From positions 372,001-436,000 of the forward strand of contig JARKND010000004.1 in the NCBI GenBank assembly GCA_029309925.1: a stretch of DNA of 64,000 bases, given 5' to 3'. The DNA comes from Fulvivirgaceae bacterium JP3-4. Lineage in GTDB: Bacteria; Bacteroidota; Bacteroidia; Cytophagales; Cyclobacteriaceae. The notes under the pieces were generated by a model. The model did not search any database, was not told where the DNA came from, and saw only the letters and a list, made by a program, of their open reading frames with translations. This document shows, piece after piece, positions 19,651 through 32,931 of this stretch. The translations under genes were made by a program, and so were the position numbers. Position 1 is the first letter of the stretch. Every line of letters starts with the position of its first letter.

Positions 19651-19856
19651 CCCAATTAAAATCCGTCATTCCGCGCATTCTGAATTGTCTATGAAATGCT
19701 GAGTGCTGCTGAGCGGAATCCCTTTGCCTTGGTCGCGTTCTTCGAAGACCTTTTCATAGACAAATCGTCATCGAAGGGATTCCGCTCAGCGCAGCGCAGT
19801 TCTTCGTGGTTAGTGCGCAAGCGCGGAATGACGGGTCGATTGGAGTGCGTGCGCAT
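19621..19856 (+). repeat. F1 palindromic element, isolated full copy
   Basis: Shows the complete F1 layout: outer arms GTCATTCCGCGC / GCGCGGAATGAC and inner arms TGAGCGGAATCCCTT / AAGGGATTCCGCTCA, with TCTATGAAATGC and CTTTTCATAGA between them. It ends in the usual GATTGGAGTGCGTGCGCAT. Its left edge enters the reading frame of the coiled-coil gene. Confidence 0.9.
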
Positions 19857-19891
19857 AAAAATTTGTACATTAGTTAAAGTCAACTATTGTC

Positions 19892-20344
19892 ATGGCTGAC
19901 GCTAAAACAAACAAGTTTATTGGAATATATGGAGGCGCGATCTTGCTGATCGTTGTTATCTCCCTTTTTATTGGAAAGAATACCGATCACAGTTCTGACC
20001 TTGAGAAACCAATATCTCCTGAAGCTGTTGATGCTGCCATCGAAAAGCATAAGGCAGCAACTAAGGATGCGAAAAATACTCAAACAAGCACCAAAAAAGC
20101 CGTAGTAAAGGACACGGAGGTCGTGAGGAGAAGAATCGTGACAATCGATGGAACGGATGATGTTGGAGACGTCATTCCAGAACTAAATCTATGGGAGAAC
20201 TATCAAACGCGCACCTGGGCCGGACGAGTAAAACACGGAGAGAAAGTATTCTTCATCAGACGTGAAGGCGATGGAGTGCTTGTGGAAACAAAGTCAGGAT
20301 TAAAAGGATGGATCACCTATTGGTTTATCAAAGAGGAGAAATAG
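19892..20344 (+). CDS. Membrane-anchored SH3-like domain protein
   Basis: 150 residues. A short N-terminus precedes one transmembrane helix (FIGIYGGAILLIVVISLFIG). A charged, Lys-rich linker follows. The C-terminal 50-60 residues (RTWAGRVKHGEKVFFIRREG, then KGWITYWFIKEEK) look like a bacterial SH3 (SH3_3) domain. Such domains often bind peptidoglycan or peptides. The protein would be anchored in the inner membrane with the domain outside. No partner gene is obvious. Confidence 0.75.
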   Translation: MADAKTNKFIGIYGGAILLIVVISLFIGKNTDHSSDLEKPISPEAVDAAIEKHKAATKDAKNTQTSTKKAVVKDTEVVRRRIVTIDGTDDVGDVIPELNLWENYQTRTWAGRVKHGEKVFFIRREGDGVLVETKSGLKGWITYWFIKEEK

Positions 20345-20412
20345 TTATATCATTATAAAAAAGAATTGTCAAATATACTTACTGTCGGGCTTGCCACCTA
20401 TCCCCAGGTCAA

Positions 20413-20613
20413 TCAATTTTCCATGAGTCCGCTCACTAGCAAAATGATTTGAATCGCCATCGCGACAGCAAAAATTATCGTGATCGTCCTCAGGTGTCTT
20501 TTAATTTTCCCCTCGTTGGTCGTCCCTCTTACTTGTCTTCGGATGAAAGGAGTCCCCACGTAAAATGCAACTATTCCAACAATCGAAGCAATAAGCAATG
20601 CTTTATCTGTCAT
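20413..20613 (-). CDS. Small two-helix membrane protein
   Basis: 66 residues with hydrophobic segments LIASIVGIVAFYVGTPF and TIIFAVAMAIQIILLVSGL flanking a basic loop (RRQVRGTTNEGKIKRHLR), as expected for a small inner-membrane protein with a cytoplasmic loop. Family not recognised. An F2 repeat lies about 215 bp 5' of its start. Confidence 0.6.
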   Translation of the reverse strand: MTDKALLIASIVGIVAFYVGTPFIRRQVRGTTNEGKIKRHLRTITIIFAVAMAIQIILLVSGLMEN

Positions 20614-20826
20614 TCTTTAATTCAATTTTCTGTCCCGTGGCTTACGCAAAAACGTTCGTGCATGAGGCGTAGCTGGAATATCCTTTTCTGTGTTATTTTT
20701 CGATATTGACTTTTCCTGTTCTCAATCTGGTCTTTTCGAATTTAATACATACACTTAGCTATCTAGCGTGGCTATGACACCAACATGTGGATACATGCGC
20801 TGGTTAATGTTTTTCAAATTGTAATC

Positions 20827-20931
20827 GAGACTCCCGGTGGGCTAATGATCGGATTGGATCTGGCGGGGCAAGGAATCGATAACTAAAATAATAAACTCTC
20901 CCATACAGGGCAATACCTAAATGCGAGTAAT
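20827..20931 (-). repeat. F2 repeat, copy A
   Basis: About 105 bp running from GACTCCCGGTGGGCTAATGA through GGGGCAAGGAATCGATAACT to CCATACAGGGCAATACC and ATGCGAGTAA. Four other copies share this order. The surrounding 20614-21028 gap holds no supportable gene; a short frame at 20804-21001 is just the translated repeat. Confidence 0.9.
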
Positions 20932-21028
20932 AAAAATAGCTCAAAAGCGCAGCTATGAATAGTTGAAGCGCATGTAATGCACTAGCTCGAATAAATACCA
21001 TGTTAGCGGCTGGCCGCTTTAATCAAAT

Positions 21029-21739
21029 CTAAAATTCAGGTATAACTCCGATTAAAGTCGCTGTCCCAGTAGCTGTACCGTTAGGAAAAAAAACTTCAAC
21101 CCCTCCACCTGCAAGTCCAAAATTTGGCACAACCGTCCCAAAGTAGACAGGAGTGCCGGGATCGGGAATTATTTTGAATAAATACGTTGCAGGTATTCTT
21201 GATGGCAACGCATATCGTCCAACTGCTGCTGCACCGCTTGGAACGACTATCAGGTCATTGGTTGTCGTCCCGTACGTGCCTGGAGCCACACTTCCGTCTT
21301 TCCTAATTCTCTTATCGTTTCTATGAGCAGACAGTCGATAGAATTCATCTCCGCGTCTTGTTAAGTAGGTAAACGGTGGATATGTCGTTGGACTTATATT
21401 CAATGTAAAAAGAGAATTCGTTGCTACGGTTGGCTCCAGTCGCAACGTATCAGAACCTAATTCTTCAGATTCAAGTCTTTCAAAATCTACGATTATTGGT
21501 TGATGAAATGGTCGTGGGGAAAACTGTCCAAGTACTCCCTGATCGTACCATATGAAGTTAACAGGGTCAAGCGTGTCGTTATAGTCAATAGTGAATTCTG
21601 CATTTAGGATAATTTTTATCTTCTTTATGTCACTTATGTTATTATCAACAATCTGATAACCCATACCAGTCTCGGGTTGGGTTAGTAGTTTCACCTGAAA
21701 ATCAACTCCAAGTCTTTTAATAGTGTCCTTATTTATCAT
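21029..21739 (-). CDS. Hypothetical beta-rich protein
   Basis: 236 residues, no recognised family, no signal peptide or membrane segment. Composition is rich in Thr, Pro, Gly and aromatic residues with alternating strands (LFTLNISPTTYPPFTYLTRR) and a glycine-rich C-terminus (NFGLAGGGVEVFFPNGTATG), suggesting a beta-sandwich or a prophage/contractile-particle-like structural protein. It follows the broken FRG gene on the same strand with a 118-bp AT-rich gap. Confidence 0.6.
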   Translation of the reverse strand: MINKDTIKRLGVDFQVKLLTQPETGMGYQIVDNNISDIKKIKIILNAEFTIDYNDTLDPVNFIWYDQGVLGQFSPRPFHQPIIVDFERLESEELGSDTLRLEPTVATNSLFTLNISPTTYPPFTYLTRRGDEFYRLSAHRNDKRIRKDGSVAPGTYGTTTNDLIVVPSGAAAVGRYALPSRIPATYLFKIIPDPGTPVYFGTVVPNFGLAGGGVEVFFPNGTATGTATLIGVIPEF

Positions 21740-21857
21740 GCAAATTTTCGCTATAAGCTTATCGCTAACATTCTGACATAAAGAGTTTGACTTCCTTAAT
21801 TAAAATTAAACACACAAAGGCAAAATAACTTATCTTGGCTTGCAAAGTCGTGTCGCT

Positions 21858-22650
21858 TTAACGCATCTTTTCCCAGCAACGTATCTCTGCTAAATCTCTT
21901 AGTGATTTTCCAAATCCTCCTAAGTCAGGGAATAATGAATTTCCTGTGACGTTCACTGTCCTTAATCTTGACAAGAATTCCAGTTTTACGTTTTTATTTA
22001 TTCGAAGTTTGAAGCAATTCTTATTTGCAATTGTCCCCAACGTTTCATCGATTTGCATTTCATGATCGCAAGAAATATCGGTGCAAACTGTAAAACATCC
22101 TTGCTGCGCAATCGATCTTTCACTGTGAAAGTTGGATATAATACATTCAACAATCTTTTGATTTAATAGACTATCAAACTGTTCGTAAAAATTAATTTCT
22201 GGATAGTTCTCTTTATTTTTTACATAAAGGGCGTCCGTAAAAAAGCAATACACTATCCCGTCTGCTTCATATCCACTATCCACCGCAAAATATAAAGCCA
22301 CAAATGGCGAATAAGTCCAATCAATTAACCTGGTTGGACAACCAAAGTGCTGCATTATTGTCCACCAACACAATGTTGTCTCCTAATTTAAAGTTCCTTG
22401 TTTTGATCTCCTTGTAGGAATGCGACTTCGATGTAAATTCTCGAAATAGAGTTCTTTCGAAATTTTCCGCTTCATTCTTACCTAACTTGTGTTTACGAAT
22501 TATTCTCATTAAAGAACTGTCCAAATCCCAGTCAAAATTTGACTGTCCCCGAAAAAACCAATATGGAAGATAGGATCCATGTACTTGCTTGCTTTCTACA
22601 AAGTCAGTAAAGTCTTTCCATTTGTCGATTTGTTTTTCAGTCCAACTCAT
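21858..22650 (-). pseudogene. FRG-domain protein gene split by a frameshift
   Basis: The first part (from 22650) encodes the start of an FRG domain: YLPYWFFRGQSNFDWDLDSS, including the name-giving FRGQ. The second part (to 21858) resumes one base out of frame with the expected continuation IMQHFGCPTRLIDWTYSPFV and ALYFAVDSG. The break lies near 22380, so a single-base insertion or a two-base deletion is enough. Together they make about 260 residues, the usual length for an FRG protein. FRG domains occur in toxin-antitoxin and phage-defence contexts. Decay, a sequencing error or programmed frameshifting are all possible; no obvious slippery site was seen. Confidence 0.8.
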
Positions 22651-22719
22651 AAGTCGATTGTGGCTTTACTGGCAGCTAGTGGATATATGCACACTTGCTA
22701 ACGTTTTCTAAATTGTATT

Positions 22720-22826
22720 CTGGATTCCTAGTGGGCTAATGATCGGATTGGATCTGGTGGGGCAAGGAATCGATAACTAAAATAATAAACTCTCCCATAC
22801 AGGGCAATACCTAAATGCGAGTAAAA
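22720..22826 (-). repeat. F2 repeat, copy B, fused to an F1 half-copy
   Basis: Same core as copy A. It continues through a ~105-bp linker (containing CATCATGTATGATG) into an F1 half-copy at 22931. The same composite recurs at 25645-25970. The FRG start codon is about 70 bp away. The gap 22651-23650 contains only repeats. Confidence 0.9.
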
Positions 22827-22930
22827 GATTATCCGGCACGCGTGCGAACCAAATTGAATCGTAGTTGCGCGTATTCTCATCATGTATGATGTGCTCCGGG
22901 TAGTCCAGCACAATTGCCCACTAATTGCGA

Positions 22931-23610
22931 GGAAGCTTTTCATAGACAGCCAGCCATCATCGGGATTCCGCTCAGCATAGGGAAGTTCTTCGTAGTTATT
23001 GCGCAAGCGCGGAATGACGGATCGATTGGGGTGGGTGCGCATTCCAAACGTTCAGCCTCGCACAACCCAATTAGAACCGTCATCCGCGCATTCTGAATTG
23101 TCTATGAAATGCTGAGTGCTGCTGAGCAGAATCCCTTTGCCTTGCACACTAGCTACAAAGAGCTTTTTCATAGACAACTCGCAATCATCAGGATTCCGCT
23201 CAGCATAGCGCAGTTCTTCGTAGTTATTGCGCAAGCGCGGAATGACGGATCGATTGGAGTGGTGCGCTTTCATAAACGCGTTCAGCCCTGCACAACCCAA
23301 TTTTAGAACCGTCATTCCGCGCATTCAGAACTCTCTATGAAATGCTGAGTGCTGCTGAGCGGAATCCCTTTGTCTTGCACACTAGCTACGAAGAGCTTTT
23401 CATAGACAACTCGCAATCATCGGGATTCCGCTCAATCTAAGTTTGCTCTTCGTAGTTATCTCGCAAGCGCGGAATGACGGGTCGATTGGGGTGGGTGCGC
23501 ATTCCAAACGTTCAGCCTCGCACAACCCCCAATTAGAACCGTCATTCCACGCATTCAAAAACGGTCAGCCCTTGACAACCCCATTAAAAATCCGATTCGC
23601 ATGCGTGCGC
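22931..23610 (+). repeat. F1 cluster: one half-copy, two full copies, one 5' fragment
   Basis: The half-copy 22931-23050 is followed head-to-tail by full copies 23051-23280 and 23281-23510, then a 5' fragment to about 23610. The junctions all fall at TGCGCATTCCAAACG / TTCAGCC. Outer and inner palindromic arms are conserved while the spacers vary, which suggests that the folded structure matters. Confidence 0.9.
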
Positions 23611-23650
23611 CTGAACATACACATAAAGTACAGTAAAATAATTGTCGGTC

Positions 23651-23986
23651 TTAATGCCCTTTTCCCCTCCTCCTCTCCTTCTCGCTCATCAGCGCCAGGT
23701 AAACTTTCATGGTTCGTTTCATCAAAGATCTGGAATCGCCTTGAAGTTTGCGGGACTGTTTTTCAATGAGCCGGAAGTAGAATTGAAAGATCTCATCTGA
23801 GCCATCGTCAAGTTTCAGCTGGGAGAGAATGGGTTTCGCGAGGTGCGGTTGATAGGGACAGTCCCCCATGTCGAGTTGATCGAGAATGCTGAAGAGCTTT
23901 TGACTTTTCAGGTCTTCGCGGATGAGATAGAGGGTGAGGTCCAATGAATCCGAAAGTTTCGTCATTGGAAAAGATCTTGTTTTCAT
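23651..23986 (-). CDS. Hypothetical helical protein
   Basis: About 112 residues from the ATG at 23986; the internal ATG at 23965 (MTKLSDSLDLTLYLIREDLK) is an equally good start. Predicted mostly alpha-helical with a basic C-terminus (SEKERRRGKG). Family not recognised. It is divergent from the XRE regulator gene 70 bp away, a layout typical of a regulator next to its target or of a toxin-antitoxin pair, but neither protein shows a toxin signature. Confidence 0.65.
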   Translation of the reverse strand: MKTRSFPMTKLSDSLDLTLYLIREDLKSQKLFSILDQLDMGDCPYQPHLAKPILSQLKLDDGSDEIFQFYFRLIEKQSRKLQGDSRSLMKRTMKVYLALMSEKERRRGKGH

Positions 23987-24056
23987 AAGCAACAATCACC
24001 CAATATACCCAATTTGGGGATACGAACCAAAATAGTATGTCGTGATCTTTACAATC

Positions 24057-24275
24057 ATGGCAAAGAAAACCAAAGTTGCTAAACCGGCATACAATCGAAT
24101 TAAGGATGTACTCGAAGAAAAGGGTAAGACTCAAACATGGTTGGCAGAGCAACTCGACATGGATTTCAAAACAGTCACGCGCTACATTCACAATACGCGA
24201 CAGCCCACCTTTGAGACTTTCTTCCAGATTGCCAAAATTTTGAAAGTCAACCCGAAAGAGTTGCTTAACTCTTAG
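24057..24275 (+). CDS. XRE-family helix-turn-helix regulator
   Basis: 72 residues from ATG 24057 (MAKKTKVAKPAYNRIKDVLE); a GTG 15 bp earlier is possible. A single lambda-repressor-like domain: KTQTWLAEQLDMDFKTVTRY gives the helix-turn-helix and the end KILKVNPKELLNS is standard for this group. It binds DNA, most likely its own divergent promoter shared with the gene at 23651-23986. Confidence 0.88.
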   Translation: MAKKTKVAKPAYNRIKDVLEEKGKTQTWLAEQLDMDFKTVTRYIHNTRQPTFETFFQIAKILKVNPKELLNS

Positions 24276-24316
24276 ATGAAAAGAAGTACCCTGCACCTGA
24301 TTAGGCGAATACCAGG

Positions 24317-24338
24317 AGTCGTCCCGAAGCGGGAGACT
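24317..24338. terminator. GC-rich hairpin between convergent genes
   Basis: AGTC-TCCCG and CGGGA-GACT pair around AAG with one bulged base. It lies between the ends of the XRE gene and the gene at 24358-25047, but lacks a T-run on either side, so termination is only a suggestion. Confidence 0.35.
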
Positions 24339-24357
24339 ATGCTTGACGCAAGGATCA

Positions 24358-25047
24358 TCAGTTTTGAAGTGTTCGTTGATAGCTCCAAATTAAGTTGTCG
24401 AGTTTTTTGGCCGTAATATTAAACCCTTGATTTTTTAATCGCTCAGTCACGGCAGTAAGAATCAACTGACAGTCATTTAAACGTAATTTCTGTCCCGTTA
24501 TATTTTCTAAAAAACGAAGTATCATCCTGTCAGGTTTGATCAAGTCGTCTGAGCCTGCCAGCATAAAAAAGTACTTCAACGAAATTCCACTTTTTTGTCC
24601 GGGGATTTGTCTTATTTCATTTTCAAATTGTTGATTAGTAATAATTCCCGCTATGTCACTAAATTGTTCGACTTTAAATTTTTGTAGAACCTTTAGAAAT
24701 AATACCACCCCTTCTGATTTTAATATTCCATTTTTTGTCGATGTCCTTTGGCGATTCTTAAATACTTTTTCCGTTAAGTCGATTATGGTCATCTGTTCGA
24801 TTAACCCTAAGACGTCAGTAGTGGTTAACTCGTTTTTTCTAGAGCATCTCTCGATTTTGTAGTAATCGCAAAATCGTCTGATCACGTTTTGAACACTCTC
24901 ATATTTAACTCCAATAGAGAATACTGAATCTATTACGCAAAGTGGTAAGTGCCCATAATTATATTCGTCTTGTAAAACGAATTCCTTTTTGTCCGCAAAC
25001 TGCGCTGAACAAAAAGTCTCCACCTTTTCAATTACTTCGTTATTCAT
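24358..25047 (-). CDS. Hypothetical protein, possibly HhH-GPD-like
   Basis: 229 residues, all helical, no signal peptide, AT-rich codon use. The segment IRQIPGQKSGISLKYFFMLA followed by KPDRMILRFL resembles the helix-hairpin-helix plus Asp region of HhH-GPD base-excision glycosylases (hairpin, then a conserved Asp before a helix). The upstream part has LCVIDSVFSIGVKYESVQNV, also plausible for that fold. If so it may recognise or repair modified DNA. The resemblance is by eye only and other helical folds are possible. Confidence 0.6.
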   Translation of the reverse strand: MNNEVIEKVETFCSAQFADKKEFVLQDEYNYGHLPLCVIDSVFSIGVKYESVQNVIRRFCDYYKIERCSRKNELTTTDVLGLIEQMTIIDLTEKVFKNRQRTSTKNGILKSEGVVLFLKVLQKFKVEQFSDIAGIITNQQFENEIRQIPGQKSGISLKYFFMLAGSDDLIKPDRMILRFLENITGQKLRLNDCQLILTAVTERLKNQGFNITAKKLDNLIWSYQRTLQN

Positions 25048-25212
25048 GTCTATCCAAATAAAATAACTATAGCTATCCGCAGAATGATTTTGGGGCGACC
25101 TGCTCCGTCACTGTCAATTGTGACCGAATGCTATTTTAAACACAAACTACGAATCACTCTGAACCCCCACAATGGCACATACACATTGTTAACGGCTGTG
25201 CCTTGACATCAC

Positions 25213-25626
25213 TTACTGATTCGGGTAGATCGTTGTGTTTGTTCTAAGGTCTGTTATGTAAATCGTGTCTGGCCGAACCATTGCTCTTAGACTGTCATAG
25301 TGCGCATGAACCCGTATCTCTTTCTCTCTGTTTCCTTCCTTGTCGTAAACGTAAAGTAGGTCAACGAAGTCTGTAGTGTCCTTGACAACGTATGTCGAGT
25401 CGAGAAAATAATGTGTTCTTTCTTTAACTAGTTGTCCTTTGTTGTCGTAAGAGTAAAACGAGTGAAAGTTGATATCGTTGTCTGGCGCATTCTCATTCCC
25501 ATATTTCTCAATGAGTCGCCCCTCGCTGTCCTTTACTTCAAAATATGTCGGTGTCCAAGAAGGTGATTTCGAACATTGAAATAATGTCCAGCACATAAAA
25601 GCTAAAAGAGTAAGTCTTGTTGTCAT
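25213..25626 (-). CDS. Hypothetical lipoprotein with YD-repeat-like C-terminus
   Basis: 137 residues. The signal MTTRLTLLAFMCWTLFQC makes Cys18 the likely lipidated residue. The mature part has strand pairs such as SFYSYDNKGQLVKERTHYF and LLYVYDKEGNREKE, like RHS/YD-type beta units. Probably an outer- or inner-membrane-anchored small protein. The F2 repeat starts within 20 bp of its start codon, the closest of the five cases. Confidence 0.7.
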   Translation of the reverse strand: MTTRLTLLAFMCWTLFQCSKSPSWTPTYFEVKDSEGRLIEKYGNENAPDNDINFHSFYSYDNKGQLVKERTHYFLDSTYVVKDTTDFVDLLYVYDKEGNREKEIRVHAHYDSLRAMVRPDTIYITDLRTNTTIYPNQ

Positions 25627-25644
25627 CTGTCAGGCATTGCCGTT

Positions 25645-25756
25645 ATCATCTGGACTCCCGGTGGGCTAATGATTGGTGGGGCGAGGAATCGATAACCAAA
25701 ATAACAAACTCTCCCATACAGGGCAATAGCTAAATGCGAGTAAAAGCTTATTCGGC
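25645..25756 (-). repeat. F2 repeat, copy C, fused to the large F1 array
   Basis: Slightly shortened near its start (GATTGGTGGGGCGAGGAATC) but otherwise matching copies A, B and E. Linker and F1 half-copy follow as in copy B. Confidence 0.88.
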
Positions 25757-25850
25757 ACGCGCGCGGAACCAAATTAACCGAAGTTGCGCGTATTCTCATC
25801 ATGTATGACGTGCTCCGGTTAGTCCAGCACAATTGCTCACTAATTGCGAG

Positions 25851-27384
25851 GAAGCTTTTCATAGACAGCCAGCTATCATCGGGATTCCGCTCAGCATAGC
25901 GCAGTTCTTCGTAGATATCGCGCAAGCGCGGAATGACGGATCGATTGGGGTGAGAGCGCATTCAAGAACGTTCAGCCCTGCACAACCTCAGTTTGAACCG
26001 TCATTCCGCGCATTCTGAAATAACTAGGAAATGCTGAATGTTCTTGAGCGGAAACCCTTTGCCTTGGTCGCGTTCTTCGAAGAGCTTTTCATAGACAAAT
26101 CGCGATCATCGGGATTCCGCTCAGTATAGTGCAACTCTTCGTAGTTGTTGCGCAAGCGCGGAATGACGGATCGATTGGGGTGGGTGCGCATTCCAAACGT
26201 TCAGCCCCGCACAACCCCCAATTAGAACCGTCATTCCGCGCATTCTGAAATAACTATGAAATGCTGAATGTTCTTGAGCGGAAACCCTTTGCCTTGCACA
26301 CTAGCTACGAAGAGCTTTTCATAGACAACTCGTAATCATCGGGATTCCGCTCAGTATAGTGCACCTCTTCGTAGTTATTGCGCAAGCGCGGAATGACGGA
26401 TCGATTGGGGTGGGTGCGCATTCCAAACGTTCAGCCCTGCACAAACCCCGATTAGAACCGTCATTCCGCGCATTCTGAATTGTCTATGAAATGCTGAGTG
26501 CTGCTGAGCGGAATCCCTTTGCCTTGCACACTAGCTACGAAGAGCTTTTCATAGACAACTCGTAATCATCGGGATTCCGCTCAGTATAGTGCACCTCTTC
26601 GTAGTTATCCCGCAAGCGCGGAATGACGGATCGATTGGGGTGGGTGCGCATTCACAGAGCTTTTCATAGACAACTCGCCAGCATCGGGATTCCGCTCAGC
26701 ATAGCGCAGTTCTTCGTAGTTATCTCGCAAGCGCGGAATGACGGATCGATTGGGGCGGGTGCGCATTCACAGAGCTTTTCATAGACAAATCGCAATCATC
26801 AGGATTCCGCTCAGTATGGCGCAGTTCTTCGTAGTTAGTGCGCAAGCGCGGAATGACGGATCGATTGGGGTGGGTGCGCATTCAAAAACGTTCAGCCTCG
26901 CACAACCCAATTAGAACCGTCATTCCGCGCATTCAGAACTTTCTATGAAATGCTGAGTGCTGCTGAGCGCCTGCCTGCCGATGCGATGGCATTGCGGGGC
27001 GGTAGGGAATCCCTTTGCCTTGCACACTAGCTACGAAGTGCATTTCATAGACAACTCATAATCATCGCGATTCCGCTCAGCATAGCGCAGTTCTTCGTAG
27101 TTATCTCGCAAGCGCGGAATGACGGGTCGATTGGAGTGGGTGCGCATTCACAGAGCTTTTCATAGACAACTCGCCAGCATCGGGATTCCGCTCAGCATAG
27201 CGCAGTTCTTCGTAGTTATCTCGCAAGCGCGGAATGACGGATCGATTGGGGCGGGTGCGCATTCACAGTGGTTTTCATAGACAACTCTCCATCATGGGTA
27301 TTCCGCTCAATCTAAGTTTGCTCTTCGTAGTTATCCTGCAAGCGCGGAATGACGGATCGATTGGGTGAGTGCGCATTCCAAACG
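25851..27384 (+). repeat. F1 array: four full and five half units in direct orientation
   Basis: Half 25851-25970; full 25971-26199, 26200-26429 and 26430-26653; halves 26654-26768 and 26769-26890; full 26891-27149; halves 27150-27264 and 27265-27384. A half unit is always the right half, from GAGCTTTTCATAGACAA to GGGTGCGCATTC. The full copy at 26891 carries a ~36-bp palindromic insert (26970-27006, with CCGATGCGATGGCATTGCGG). No gene is supported in 25627-27484. The array ends 100 bp before a GIY-YIG gene. Confidence 0.92.
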
Positions 27385-27484
27385 TGAACAGTCATTTCAC
27401 CATTTGCATCTTAAAATGTCCAATTGATGTCGTGTGAGTGCAGGCTTATTGCGTCAAATGTAATAACATCCCCACATTCGAGCC

Positions 27485-27805
27485 ATGAACGAAATTTCAT
27501 TAAACCATGCCGCCTGGGTTTACATTCTTACAAACAAAAACAACACAGTCTTTTACGTTGGGATAACTAACGACCTGCGCACAAGAGTTTGGGAACACCA
27601 GAAGAAACAAAATAAAAAATCATTCACAGCCCGATACAACGTTCACAAACTTGTGTACCTCGAAGGTTTTGAATTGATCGCTGATGCGATCGCGCGTGAG
27701 AGCTATATCAAAAATCAAACACGAATTTGGAAGATTGAACTGATTAAAAGTATTAATCCAAACTTGGATGAGTTATCACCGAATTTATATTTTACCATGG
27801 ATTAG
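27485..27805 (+). CDS. GIY-YIG nuclease family protein, copy 1
   Basis: 106 residues, a stand-alone GIY-YIG domain. The motif pair is AWVYILTNKNNTVFYVGITN (VYI...YVG replaces GIY...YIG as in this subfamily), followed by the Arg in LRTRVWEHQ and the catalytic Glu in AIARESYIKNQTRIWK. These small proteins are predicted to cut DNA with one metal ion; their cellular role is unknown. It starts about 100 bp after the end of the large F1 array, in the same orientation as the array. It is about 85 percent identical by eye to the copy at 30464, and resemblance continues into the upstream gap. Confidence 0.93.
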   Translation: MNEISLNHAAWVYILTNKNNTVFYVGITNDLRTRVWEHQKKQNKKSFTARYNVHKLVYLEGFELIADAIARESYIKNQTRIWKIELIKSINPNLDELSPNLYFTMD

Positions 27806-27826
27806 GTTCATTATCAAAGTCCGAAG

Positions 27827-28159
27827 TCATTTATCCTTCTTCTTTTTCTTGAGTTTTGGTTCTGGCAATTCTTTGACAGTAAGTCTGACCAACTTCTTCA
27901 GCCAGTCACGGTCGTCCAGTTTTTCTGTGATTAAAAAACTTGGTTTTGCGCCTGGATATGGTGGTGCTTCAACAACTTCCTCAATAAATGTCCTCCCTGC
28001 AAGTGTTGGTTTAATAAATAGTTTATTGTCACAAACGAGTCCAAATAATTTGTCGTCAAAATAAAGTCCGTATTCACCAAACATTTTCTTGCAGCTGACT
28101 TGTCCGGGGAGATCAATTTGATCAAGGATATAGTCGACAAATTTCTGGTCTGACGCCAT
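27827..28159 (-). CDS. TfoX N-terminal domain family protein
   Basis: 110 residues. CKKMFGEYGLYFDDKLFGLV matches the core of the TfoX_N domain, known from the competence regulator TfoX, and the rest of the domain follows (DNKLFIKPTLAGRTFIEEVV, PPYPGAKPSFLI). A Lys-rich tail closes the protein. Stand-alone TfoX_N proteins are common in Bacteroidota with unknown roles, so a competence function should not be assumed. It is convergent with the GIY-YIG gene with 21 bp between stops. Confidence 0.9.
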   Translation of the reverse strand: MASDQKFVDYILDQIDLPGQVSCKKMFGEYGLYFDDKLFGLVCDNKLFIKPTLAGRTFIEEVVEAPPYPGAKPSFLITEKLDDRDWLKKLVRLTVKELPEPKLKKKKKDK

Positions 28160-28376
28160 GTCATTAAATTAATTGTTAATGCTTACAAGTATAGGAGAAT
28201 TGTCCATAGGATACATGTCAATTGGAATATCAATTTCGTCTTCATTGTGCCTGGACCACGACAGCCACCCAATAGCCACAACGTTGGTGTTTATAACGCT
28301 TTCGGTGCAGGAGTGTTTATTAAATGAGAAGCATGACAAACATGAGCAGTCCAAAAATACAGTGTTGGCGGGCGTT

Positions 28377-29708
28377 CTATTTCAGTACTTTTTTGAATTC
28401 CTTATTTTCGCGAATATTATCGAAGTCTTTGTGTGCGAGGCTGGTCCTGAAGATCATTCGGTCGTTGTCGGTTTGTAAACTCTTGTTTGCTTCAGTCAAA
28501 AATGCCAAAGCTTTTTTATTCGCGCCAGCTTTGGCATGAAGCCTTCCGCTCTCCATGAGTACGAAAAGGGTCCTGGGATTTTTCGAGTTGTAGTCCGTAA
28601 GTTGCTGAATGGCGTCCGGCAGATTGTTTGCCTGCTCCAATATTTCAACTTGAAATAGCAGCGAGCCCACCTTCTCTTCATCTGTTGTCGCAATTTCCCT
28701 CAGGCGTTTTACCAGCGGTAAAACAAACTTGCTGTTAATTGAGTCGTTATTTAACGCACGATAGCTATCAATTACTCTGAAAGTGCGATAATAATCTTTC
28801 GGGTACTCTTTTAAGATCTTCTCATTGTGCTGGATAAGGCTTTCAATTTCGAGCTCAGCCATTTTCGCATAACAGTTCGCAAGCAGTCCGTAAGCTTCCA
28901 TTAAAGATTCATCCTTTACCATGAAATCTGTCAATGCCAATTCACTTACGTAAGTTTTAAGATTTTTCTCGGCCAGGTGGTAGTTTTTAAAATGGTCTTT
29001 AAGAATAATCGATGAGTACAAGTATCCATTAACCATTCTCAGGTCTCTTGGTCGTACGTTCTCATAGTGCTTTATCACTTTGCCATAATAGAATAGTGCG
29101 CTGTCGTAAACTTTGTGGTCGTCATACAGATTCGCCAACTTCATGTAGGCCTGCCCATATTCAGGGTCCATTTTCATTATCTTGTGGAAATAATATATCG
29201 CACTGTCTATTTTTTCTGGGATTGTTGCCAGGCGCATCCCCAGCCATATGTAATTGCCGACATGGTCAGGTTCGATTTTCACAGCTTTTCTTAAGTAGTC
29301 TAAAGCAGAAGCTTTATCACCTTCTGTCCACTTTACTGTAGCCATCAGCGTATAAGCATCGCCTAATTTTGGATTAAGCTTTATAGCCTTCTGTGCAAAC
29401 CATTTCTGGTTTTTAAATTCATCCTGATCATCACCATCGTAGGTTTTGAATTTATAAACGTGTCCTAAAAATGCATAGGCTGCTCCATACAATGAATCTT
29501 CGTGGATTGCCTGCTGAAGGTAATAGACTGCGCTATCGCTTCCGGTTTTAGTCCAGTTCCACATGTGGTCATAATAGGCTTTCTTGAAATAAGTGAATGC
29601 CTTTTCGTTCGTTGACCCAACTCTGTCGGCTCGTTTGTAATAATTAAATCCGCTCTGTCCGGAAGCAACGGTTGAAATCAATAGTAAAGTCAGCGTCCAA
29701 CATTTCAT
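28377..29708 (-). CDS. TPR-repeat protein, exported
   Basis: 443 residues with a signal peptide (MKCWTLTLLLISTVASGQS). Repeated TPR pairs run through the whole chain, for example YGAAYAFLGHVYKFKTYDGD, LGDAYTLMATVKWTEGDKAS, DHVGNYIWLGMRLATIPEKI and YGQAYMKLANLYDDHKVYDS. No catalytic domain is attached. It is probably a periplasmic scaffold or binding protein. An F2 repeat lies about 80 bp 5' of its start. Confidence 0.88.
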   Translation of the reverse strand: MKCWTLTLLLISTVASGQSGFNYYKRADRVGSTNEKAFTYFKKAYYDHMWNWTKTGSDSAVYYLQQAIHEDSLYGAAYAFLGHVYKFKTYDGDDQDEFKNQKWFAQKAIKLNPKLGDAYTLMATVKWTEGDKASALDYLRKAVKIEPDHVGNYIWLGMRLATIPEKIDSAIYYFHKIMKMDPEYGQAYMKLANLYDDHKVYDSALFYYGKVIKHYENVRPRDLRMVNGYLYSSIILKDHFKNYHLAEKNLKTYVSELALTDFMVKDESLMEAYGLLANCYAKMAELEIESLIQHNEKILKEYPKDYYRTFRVIDSYRALNNDSINSKFVLPLVKRLREIATTDEEKVGSLLFQVEILEQANNLPDAIQQLTDYNSKNPRTLFVLMESGRLHAKAGANKKALAFLTEANKSLQTDNDRMIFRTSLAHKDFDNIRENKEFKKVLK

Positions 29709-29784
29709 ATTTTCAGGTTTAAGTTGTTCACCCTTTCGAAAATGACTGCTAACTACTGCAGATAGCCTTGCTAAAGTCTTCCAA

Positions 29785-29895
29785 TTGGCATGGAGGTTCC
29801 TGAGCTGTCGGATTGGATTGGTGGGGCAAGGAATCGGTAACTAAAATAATAAAGTCTTCTGTACAGAGCAATAGCTGAACGCGGGTAAAAGTTTG
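29785..29895 (-). repeat. F2 repeat, copy D, fused to F3
   Basis: More diverged copy (GGGGCAAGGAATCGGTAACT, then TGTACAGAGCAATAGC) that runs directly into an F3 element at 29914. Confidence 0.8.
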
Positions 29896-29913
29896 TTCGG
29901 CATGCGGGCGATT

Positions 29914-30060
29914 CACCTCGCCCTGGTCCCTCTGCTCAGGGAGAGGATGGCTCCCGATCAAAGTTCAATTGAACCATTAATCGAGGCGCGCTTCGATAAT
30001 AGAAAAAATTTGTAAAGCCGGTCACCTTCTCCTCGAGGAGAAGGGATGGCGAGGAGGTGA
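29914..30060 (+). repeat. F3 repeat, copy 1
   Basis: Contains CTCCCGATCAAAG, AATCGAGGCGCGCTTC and the palindrome CCTTCTCCTCGAGGAGAAGG, ending GAGGAGGTGA. Copies recur at 32932-33103 and 39739-39874. Confidence 0.8.
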
Positions 30061-30069
30061 AGTGGGGAC

Positions 30070-30352
30070 GAAATGCTTAAGGTGGGGTGCGCATTTAGAA
30101 AGGTTCAGTGCCTGCGAAGCCCAATTAAAATCCGTCATCCCCGTAGCTATCGGGACGCGCATTCTGAAATGACTATGGAATGCTGGATGCTCCTGAGCGG
30201 CACCCTTTGCCTTGGTCGTGTTCTCCGAAGAGCTTTTCATAGTGAGTGATCATGGCAAAGGGTTTCCGCTCGTGAACGGCTCGCTTTTCATAGAACGCGC
30301 AGCAAGCGCGGAATGACGGATCGATTTGGTGGGCGTGCGCATTCTGGGCGAG
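30070..30352 (+). repeat. F1 element, diverged full copy with palindromic insert
   Basis: Retains the outer GCGCGGAATGACGG arm and the TGCGCATTC ends but has rearranged inner arms. A small palindrome (CCCCGTAGCTATCGGGA, 30138-30155) interrupts the left CCGTCATTCCGCGC arm. It ends about 110 bp before the second GIY-YIG gene. Confidence 0.8.
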
Positions 30353-30463
30353 CAACAACTCATGTAATTTACATCGTCAACCGTCCAATTACTGTTCATA
30401 CAGGACTACAGCCTTGCATTTAGTCAAGCACATAAGCACATTCCGCTCAGAAGATCACGATCT

Positions 30464-30751
30464 ATGCACACAGCCTGGGTTTACATTCTTACAAACAAAA
30501 ACAAAACTGTCTTTTACGTTGGGATAACTAACGACCTGCGAACAAGAGTATGGGAACACCAACAAAAACAAAATAAAAAATCTTTCGCTGCTCGATACAA
30601 CATTTGCAAACTCGTGTACTGCGAAGGCTTTGAATTGATCACCGATGCCATCGCGCGTGAAAGCTATATCAAAAATCAATCAAGACTTTGGAAGATTGAA
30701 TTGATTAAAAGTATTAACCCAAACATGGATGAGTTGTCAACGGATTTTTAA
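30464..30751 (+). CDS. GIY-YIG nuclease family protein, copy 2
   Basis: 95 residues, close paralogue of the gene at 27485-27805. The domain is complete: AWVYILTNKNKTVFYVGITN, LRTRVWEHQQKQNKKSFAAR and the Glu in AIARESYIKNQSRLWK. It begins directly at the domain, lacking the first ten residues of copy 1. It is bracketed by F1 elements on both sides (ending 30352 and starting 30797), all in the same orientation. It looks intact and active by motif. Role unknown; association with F1 palindromes is the strongest clue. Confidence 0.93.
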   Translation: MHTAWVYILTNKNKTVFYVGITNDLRTRVWEHQQKQNKKSFAARYNICKLVYCEGFELITDAIARESYIKNQSRLWKIELIKSINPNMDELSTDF

Positions 30752-30796
30752 TTTTCTGTTAATTGCACTTATCATCTAACCTCCCCACTATCAGAG

Positions 30797-31270
30797 ATAC
30801 CGATTGGGGTGCGTGCGCATTCCAAACGTTGAGCCCTGCACAAACCCTAATTAGAACCGTCATTCCGCGTATTCTAAATTTTCTATGAAATGCTGAATGT
30901 GTCTGAGCGCCTGCCGATGCGATGGCATTGCGGGGCGGTAGGCAGGGAATCCCTTTGGCTTGGTCGCGTTGTTCCAACAGCCTTTCATAGACAACCAGCC
31001 ATCATCGGGATTCCGCTCAGTATAGTGAAACACTTCGTAGTCATCGCGCAAGCGCGGAATGACGGATCGATTTGTGTGGGTGCACATTCCAAACGTTCAG
31101 CCCTGCACAACCCAATTACAACCGTCATTCCGCGCATTCTGAATTTTCTATGAAATGTTGAATGTTCCTGAGCGGAATCCTTTTGCCTTGGAGACTAACT
31201 CCGAAGAGCTTTTTATTGACAACTTGTAATCATCGTGGTTGTGTTACGTATAGTTTTGGTCTTCGTACTT
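30797..31270 (+). repeat. Two F1 elements, one full with palindromic insert, one decayed
   Basis: Full copy 30797-31095 carries the insert CCTGCCGATGCGATGGCATT... (30910-30945) at the same position as the copy at 26891. The second copy 31096-31270 keeps its left half but decays on the right. Confidence 0.88.
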
Positions 31271-31385
31271 ATTTCGTTTACGCCTGAATCAGTCTATAGT
31301 CCAGCGATCTCTTGGCTAGGGCTAACGTTATCAAGCTTTTTGACTGAGAGGTAAGAATCCAATATTGCCACCGCATGGTCAATTG

Positions 31386-32717: not shown

Positions 32718-32805
32718 ATTTAATTTAGGTTGATATCTCCGATTGCGAGCACATTTCTGCCACCTCGTGCATACAACACAAGCTGACTTTTGCAATGTCA
32801 TCAAG

Positions 32806-32912
32806 ACTCCCAGTGGGCTATTGATCGGATTGGATCTGGTGGGGCAAGGAATCGATAACTAAAATATTGGAAGCTCCCACAGAGGGCAATACCTACAAGG
32901 GAGTAAAAATTT
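32806..32912 (-). repeat. F2 repeat, copy E, fused to F3
   Basis: Shares GGATTGGATCTGGTGGGGCA and AGGAATCGATAACTAAAATA with copies A and B. It diverges in the second half and continues into F3 at 32932. Copies D and E therefore share an F2-F3 composite, copies B and C an F2-F1 composite. Confidence 0.88.
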
Positions 32913-32931
32913 ATCCGGCATGTGCGCGAAG

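Follow-up and report, generated by a model that had tools for sequence, protein, structure and literature searches.

CGTC-tagged palindromic repeats beside small GIY-YIG nuclease genes: a candidate enzyme for a repeat family

The window analysed here, a stretch of 64,000 nucleotides from Fulvivirgaceae bacterium JP3-4 (assembly GCA_029309925.1, contig JARKND010000004.1, positions 372,001 to 436,000), carries two small genes for GIY-YIG nucleases (genes 1 and 2, encoding proteins 1 and 2), each beside copies of a palindromic repeat, F1. Their arrangement raises the question of whether such a nuclease is tied to the repeat next to it, in a partnership like that of repetitive extragenic palindromic (REP) sequences with RAYT transposases. 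Relatives of the two genes in several phyla are tightly flanked in most loci by hairpins that carry the end tag of F1, CGTC, and have complementary stem arms; four residues of the nuclease covary with the stem, and the unit of repeats and gene is found on some of a group of related plasmids and missing from others. The co-variation with the repeat sequence suggests that the nuclease is a candidate for the missing enzyme of the CGTC repeat family.

CGTC hairpins beside relatives of the window genes

Protein 1 has matches in 71 of 98 genomes of the same family, with a patchy distribution, often several copies per genome, and some copies with in-frame stops. The family loci first inspected mostly carried other repeats of F1's plan and not F1 itself, and searching the relatives' flanks for F1's own letters yielded little because the stems differ between loci: CGTC is followed by ATTGC, ACCCT, ACTCT, ATCGC, ACTGC, or others, whose complement lies downstream. 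A scan of 84,980 species, each represented by a single genome, found at least 573 relatives, the best 80 of which were kept with up to 10 kb on each side. By their record titles, these 80 loci come from Bacteroidota, Chlorobiota, Proteobacteria, Chloroflexi, Cyanobacteria, Omnitrophota, Patescibacteria, Spirochaetes, Acidobacteria, and others, but many are metagenome bins whose taxon labels may be wrong.

All 256 four-base tags, each followed by a 5-base stem, a loop of 3–50 bases, and the complement, were counted at less than 800 bp and at more than 3 kb from the gene. CGTC ranked first, with 223 hairpins near the gene vs. 20.0 expected from the far density (11-fold), distributed over 61 of the 80 loci. 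The stem rule was set to 5 bp after the sequences of 29 family loci had been viewed, and later sets were scored under it; most Bacteroidota REPs have 5-bp stems, and in an earlier scan of the 29 loci with perfect 6-bp stems CGTC was not among the top tags. CGTC hairpins are densest close to the gene, at 3.9 and 3.7 per kb in the two adjoining 250-bp stretches, and fall to approximately 0.05–0.25 per kb at 3–10 kb. When only intergenic DNA is considered, their density is 4.63 per kb within 500 bp vs. 0.26 per kb at 3–10 kb, an enrichment of about 18-fold. Co-localisation above chance, which the sequence-only reading had proposed to check among Bacteroidota, is therefore strongly positive, and across phyla.

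At least one CGTC hairpin lies within 500 bp of the gene in 59 of the 80 loci, and in 43 of 80 inverted tagged REPs flank the gene on both sides, as is typical of REPtrons. Two sets of family loci gave 21/29 (13 on both sides) and 15/20 (11 on both sides), or 20/27 (12) and 13/18 (10) when limited to loci outside the 80. In a control clade of different GIY-YIG genes from the same genomes (20 low-scoring matches, picked before their flanks were viewed), a CGTC hairpin was found at 4 of 20 loci, never on both sides and never with an A-initial stem. Fresh loci, scored for a [CT]GTC tag with an A[TC]NN[CT] stem and freed of duplicates, had a hairpin in 23 of 28 cases in Gammaproteobacteria (21 on both sides) and in 20 of 30 in Alphaproteobacteria (nine on both sides). 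Under a looser rule, which covered 59 of the 60 loci (L212, E 4e-12, was left out) and admits a few doubtful hairpins (e.g. L200, L207, L242), these counts were 26/29 and 21/30. The CGTC tag ranked first in the gammaproteobacterial set and second in the alphaproteobacterial one, after GTCA, the same tag shifted by one base. Among plasmid loci (13 of 33 matched records), nine carried a CGTC hairpin, eight of them on both sides; a hairpin at L165 with an untypical stem was not counted. Some loci had been retrieved by separate searches (L025/L096, L028/L053, L063/L136, L112/L205, and L115/L138), and these duplicates were removed in recounts.

A REP in plus orientation upstream of the gene and one in minus orientation downstream, so that the tags point outward, is the commonest layout in all four sets (e.g. 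24/51 and 14/21), with a median tag-to-tag distance of 409–466 bp. The pairing of the stems does not arise by construction, since among 349 CGTCA sites near the genes, collected without requiring a partner, 195 are followed by the complement of their own stem, whereas 200 stem-swap trials gave a mean of 21.7 and a maximum of 31 partners. The 5' arm is usually followed by GA (G in 135 and A in 138 of 149 unique hairpins).

A few loci stand apart. L012, a 55% relative of the window protein, has no CGTCA hairpin within 500 bp and is surrounded by six copies of a 221-nucleotide repeat, three on each side, perhaps with a different tag. In L160, on a Planktothrix agardhii plasmid, a REP-gene-REP unit has an MmeI-type restriction gene on one side and drmA of a DISARM locus on the other. 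REP-less copies in Chryseobacterium (L050, L061, L069, L071, L076, L077, L087, and L095) are possibly domesticated. No match was found among 50,697 phage records, and 18 loci matched in IMG/VR.

A second small GIY-YIG clade (L140–L159, and L001, L002, and L008 in the window genome), which we read as UPF0213/YhbQ-like, has a link of its own: in 15 of 20 loci a tRNA gene lies no more than 200 bp from the stretch matched, often at 35–45 bp, compared to none of 49 loci of the REP-linked clade within the fetched stretch. In the window genome, L001 and L008 lie approximately 40 bp from a tRNA gene and L002 is a tandem second copy of L001, and at L140 (G096:C1:3226018-3230722) some 14–15 tandem copies of the GIY-YIG gene with a period of about 346 bp stand beside two tRNA-Asp genes.

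Covariation between nuclease residues and repeat stems

Which stem follows the tag may be read from the protein. The comparison used 91 labelled proteins, that is, 134 less 43 (38 had no hairpin within 500 bp, and in five the stem looked spurious to the eye). Residues 78, 77, 79, and 82 had the highest mutual information with stem bases 4–5 (excess of 0.88, 0.79, 0.65, and 0.41 bits, respectively), compared to 0.31 bits for the next column and a median of 0.045 over 90 columns, and the same four residues lead after removal of duplicates (88 proteins; 0.87, 0.78, 0.66, and 0.39 bits). Broadly, [AG]G[SN]R occurs with stems of the form ..GC, K[WY].R..K with ..TC, and an aromatic residue 82 with ..CC or ..CT. 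With duplicates removed, stem base 4 is G in 47 of 49 cases with G78 and in 2 of 39 with other residues, and in the hold-out and plasmid sets in 2/2 vs. 3/51 (p = 0.007). Residues 77, 78, 79, and 82 predict stem base 4 at 85% from training proteins less than 60% identical, a figure obtained on the same proteins on which residues 77–82 were chosen, so that the hold-out and plasmid counts alone are independent; the nearest whole protein achieves 46% (43% without duplicates) and four variable columns drawn at random at most 54%. In the AlphaFold model of protein 1 (mean predicted local distance difference test score 90.4), residues 77–79 form the turn joining two C-terminal helices, 65–76, which holds E72, and 80–90. 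This covariation supports, at the level of sequence, the earlier proposal that the GIY-YIG protein may recognise the palindrome.

The window genome itself holds a second nuclease/repeat pair. The clade member at C1:2504238-2504516 (L006) carries K77, Y78, S79, and K82, and CGTCACCTCGAG repeats lie at its flanks. Of the six genomic copies of this repeat, five are found no further than 360 bp from the gene, and the base in fourth place after the tag is T, which is what the code predicts for this protein. Together with the cross-phylum co-localisation, this pair supports the analogy drawn from the sequence alone, namely a REP/RAYT-like pairing with a GIY-YIG enzyme.

The window genes and the F1 array

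Both window proteins belong to the GIY-YIG superfamily, with PF01541 scores of 62.9 (gene 1) and 58.9 bits (gene 2) at a cut-off of 22.6. As the sequence-only reading had it, they are the only such genes in the window (two of nine PF01541 matches in the genome) and close paralogues at 84% identity. In an alignment of 25 proteins Y13, Y24, G26, H38, and N91 are invariant and R34 and E72 nearly so; we take these seven to be the catalytic residues of the fold. The best solved relatives by sequence and fold are UPF0213 proteins of unknown function (1zg2, 1ywl), and a Foldseek search gave one match with E < 0.001 (UPF0213), followed by Slx1 with E from 0.02 (probability up to 1.0) and UvrC with E from 0.64.

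F1 consists of head-to-head half-palindromes, CGTC-ATTCCGC-loop-GCGGAAT-CCC, a spacer, and the same reversed, so that the CGTC tags stand at the outer ends. This agrees with the large palindrome of outer and inner arms described before, and a single unit folded as single-stranded DNA has z = -6.3. Full pairs recur about every 230 bp and right halves alone every 115 bp (Table 1). Exact sites of the F1 tag-arm, CGTCATTCCGCGC, number 26 in the 5,807,927-base genome, with none for the reversed control, and 22 of them fall within 11.5 kb (C4:391664-403135, window 19664-31135), which shows that the clustering at the GIY-YIG genes is not due to chance; part of these 22 sites is due to local tandem copying. 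The remaining sites lie two each at two places on contig C5, neither of which has a tblastn match to the window protein.

The two genes had been thought to begin 100–110 bp after an F1 copy; this distance is reached only when the conserved bases just beyond the F1 tag are counted in, and from the last base of the tag (27355 and 30319) it is 129 and 144 nucleotides. Gene 2 is followed by two F1 copies, as reported (at 30858 and 31123), and no F1 is found downstream of gene 1 ahead of the copies preceding gene 2. The suspicion that repeat, gap, and gene were duplicated as a block is borne out, since one blastn alignment (78.5% over 466 columns) runs through the F1 end, the gap, and the gene. A non-F1 segment of about 95–220 bp also recurs, with five genome matches, all in this stretch of approximately 12 kb (window positions 20829-20930, 22719-22941, 25640-25860, 29816-29910, and 32798-32928).

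Table 1. Positions of the nuclease genes, F1 copies, and duplicated blocks in the window
Feature	Position	Strand	Basis or remark
GIY-YIG nuclease gene 1, 106 residues	27485..27805	+	PF01541 profile, alignment, AlphaFold model
GIY-YIG nuclease gene 2, 95 residues, 84% identical paralogue of gene 1	30464..30751	+	PF01541 profile, alignment
Codons of residues 77-82 (NQTRIW), gene 1	27713..27730	+	Residues 77-79 and 82 vary together with stem bases 4-5 of the REP
F1 array 5' of gene 1, CGTC-tagged half-palindromes (full pairs and lone right halves)	25853..27355		
F1 pair 5' of gene 2, left half diverged	30130..30319		
F1 pair 3' of gene 2	30857..31065		34-nucleotide insert also present at 26973-27006
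F1 copy 3' of gene 2, right half decayed	31122..31276		
Outlying F1 pair	19663..19834		
Outlying F1 copies	23003..23560		22719-23556 is an 87% duplicate of 25649-26475
Block of REP end, gap, and gene, copy 1	27338..27793	+	blastn
Block of REP end, gap, and gene, copy 2	30302..30754	+	blastn

Possible mobility, rival explanations, and known systems

We consider it probable that the window genes are nucleases dedicated to REPs, each recognising its own CGTC hairpin, and that host repair spreads or maintains REP and gene, which would make this a GIY-YIG "REPtron". The nuclease would recognise the hairpin of its own palindrome, that is, the tag CGTC followed by A and the variable stem bases, with the turn residues 77–79 and residue 82 reading stem bases 4 and 5. 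The autonomous element would be REP(+)-gene-REP(-), with tags outward and approximately 410–470 bp from tag to tag, and the gene-less REP pairs may be its non-autonomous derivatives. Extruded as a hairpin or cruciform, the REP would be nicked or cut by the enzyme, much as Slx1 cuts branched DNA, and host repair or replication would then fill the break with a copy of the element or of the REP, so that both spread or are maintained. Since GIY-YIG enzymes work by hydrolysis, with no covalent intermediate, host enzymes must do the joining. We infer that the nuclease may cleave REPs, confer mobility, and drive the spread of the repeat, as the sequence-only reading had envisaged. The wider claim, that this is a new class of selfish element in which a nuclease of about 100 residues reads its own hairpin by a code (residues 77–79 and 82) and spreads by cut and repair, and that the tRNA-linked clade may do likewise, seems to us evenly balanced.

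Related plasmids differ in whether they carry the unit. In Azospirillum lipoferum 4B it separates sufB and sufC, and three aligned relatives with flanks about 94% identical lack both the unit and a CGTC palindrome. Sphingobium TYG46 and MM7A carry a unit that is missing from four aligned relatives, and in Shinella PSBB067, XJ20, and H4-D48 it is absent; these comparisons are too diverged to fix the exact unit ends or target-site duplications. The empty sites bear on the main rival explanation, namely that the gene is a free-standing homing endonuclease that lands in pre-existing REPs and does not spread them. GIY-YIG is a classic homing fold, and at two of the four empty Sphingobium sites (TYG74 and TYG64) one palindrome, tagged CGTC at either end, stands where the unit sits elsewhere, the unit resembling this palindrome opened centrally. 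However, the three Azospirillum sites have no such palindrome, the other Sphingobium relatives (TYG72 and TYG65) carry different palindromes without the tag at that place, and exact copies of the repeats in the window genome occur almost solely beside the nuclease genes, which fits production of REPs near the gene better than a scattered target. We therefore regard homing alone as unlikely.

Even less probable, in our judgement, is that a domesticated nuclease serves the host by resolving REP cruciforms or processing REP transcripts, e.g. in chromosome maintenance or mRNA turnover. The Slx1-like fold points weakly in this direction, and the REP-less Chryseobacterium copies may be domesticated, but the patchy distribution, the several paralogues per genome, the in-frame stops, and the presence or absence in relatives are traits of selfish elements. 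That REPs and small genes merely gather in the same tolerant intergenic DNA is hardly credible: both are intergenic, and 44% of the DNA within 500 bp of the gene is intergenic vs. 13% far away, but the excess per intergenic kb remains after this correction, it is not seen around the other GIY-YIG clade, and the residue–stem covariation would be left unexplained, unless by shared descent.

Beyond single loci, REPs and gene are associated at the genome level only moderately. The REP CGTCATTGCGA-N3..33-GCAATC occurs in 30 of the 98 family genomes (none for reversed controls) and in all of ten genomes picked from carriers, with 3–49 copies each (at least one of the ten is also in the family sample). 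A clade gene, by our own cut of a best E up to 1e-15, is present in 21 of the 30 REP genomes and in 30 of the other 68 (p = 0.015).

This moderate association is one of several points that weigh against a dedicated REP nuclease. G047 has 14 ATTGC REPs and no close clade gene, no CGTC hairpin is found within 500 bp in 21 of the 80 relatives or in 4 of the 13 plasmid loci (Sinorhizobium, R. tumorigenes, and Novosphingobium), and 8 of 10 Chryseobacterium loci are without a CGTCA hairpin at that distance, so that the gene can persist without REPs. The sequence-only reading had named genes without palindromes and repeats without the gene as contrary evidence; both occur in part, the former in most Chryseobacterium copies among others, and the 18-fold enrichment goes the other way. 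In the window genome, F1 is almost limited to the gene cluster and not widely dispersed, CGTCACCTCGAG pairs imperfectly and is missed by the 5-bp hairpin rule, and the paralogue L003 has no convincing REP beside it and no 12-mer common to its two flanks. The code was right for 39 of 47 hold-out proteins (duplicate L205 included) and the nearest neighbour for 11 of 47, but the hold-out stems mostly have C at base 4, a constant guess about equals the code overall, and the informative cases come down to two with G78 and one with K82. A tree that leaves out the key columns (61 of 206 proteins were dropped, having no hairpin or a stem not fitting A[TC]NN[CT]) has just one independent contrast on supported branches, and code and stem may thus share descent. 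The Foldseek matches to both Slx1 and UvrC are weak.

The repeats themselves are not new. According to the consulted parts of the catalogue by Di Nocera, De Gregorio, and Rocco (2013, PMC3733652), the CGTC REP superfamily, which includes Neisseria dRS3 and Rickettsia RPE-4/-6, comprises dispersed, high-copy repeats with a stem of 8–9 bp starting with AT, a loop of 4–5, and a tail CCA, arranged as head-to-head dimers with the tags outside; it seems to lack a dedicated transposase, and those parts report no associated enzyme gene, whereas here a GIY-YIG gene adjoins. F1 shares the end tag directly before the palindromic stem, the AT start, and the head-to-head order with outer tags, but has a 7-bp stem (ATTCCGC), a loop of over 30 nucleotides, a tail CCC, and a low copy number with 22 of 26 sites in one stretch, in contrast to the dispersed repeats of other carriers. 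F1 is thus a variant CGTC REP with a long loop and low copy number. The published form is found in alpha- and gammaproteobacterial relatives such as L187, whose CGTC-ATTCCCGC-GAAG-GCGGGAAT-CCA fits stem 8, loop 4, and tail CCA, while the usual hairpin of the 80 loci differs from it by a 5-bp stem and GA after the 5' arm. The system had been thought not to have been described; the repeat resembles a published superfamily, and its GIY-YIG partner is what we have not found elsewhere. No link between GIY-YIG and REPs or other repeats appeared in the titles or abstract beginnings among the matches listed (preprints and most subscription papers being outside reach), "GIY-YIG" together with "repetitive extragenic palindromic" was not found in the papers searched, and the available part of RepRanger 2025 (PMC12306157) contains neither "transposase" nor "endonuclease".

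CGTC REPs, including dRS3 and the Rickettsia palindromic elements, which appear without a transposase in the consulted parts of the 2013 catalogue, would thereby gain a testable candidate enzyme, and the residue-to-base code would predict which nuclease reads which repeat. If true, this would supply the missing enzyme of a REP superfamily known from several phyla, imply that a REP lifestyle has evolved around nucleases of unrelated families, and offer very small hairpin-directed enzymes for study.

Compared to known systems, the GIY-YIG homing endonucleases of the I-TevI type share the fold, and in both cases the gene may have been acquired at a recognition site, but the nuclease described here is a free-standing single domain without an intron and with its own hairpins on either side. 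UPF0213 proteins are the closest solved relatives, with weaker fold matches to Slx1 and the GIY-YIG domain of UvrC, which are larger housekeeping repair proteins. The closest parallel is the RAYT/REPtron system (TnpAREP with GTAG REPs), in which a single gene likewise lies between inverted tagged palindromes and REP dimers elsewhere are likely non-autonomous forms. Its enzyme is an HUH tyrosine transposase of the IS200/IS605 superfamily and its tag GTAG, whereas the enzyme here is a GIY-YIG protein of approximately 95–105 residues and the tag CGTC. The GIY-YIG/CGTC system may therefore work like a REPtron, yet it is not a RAYT.

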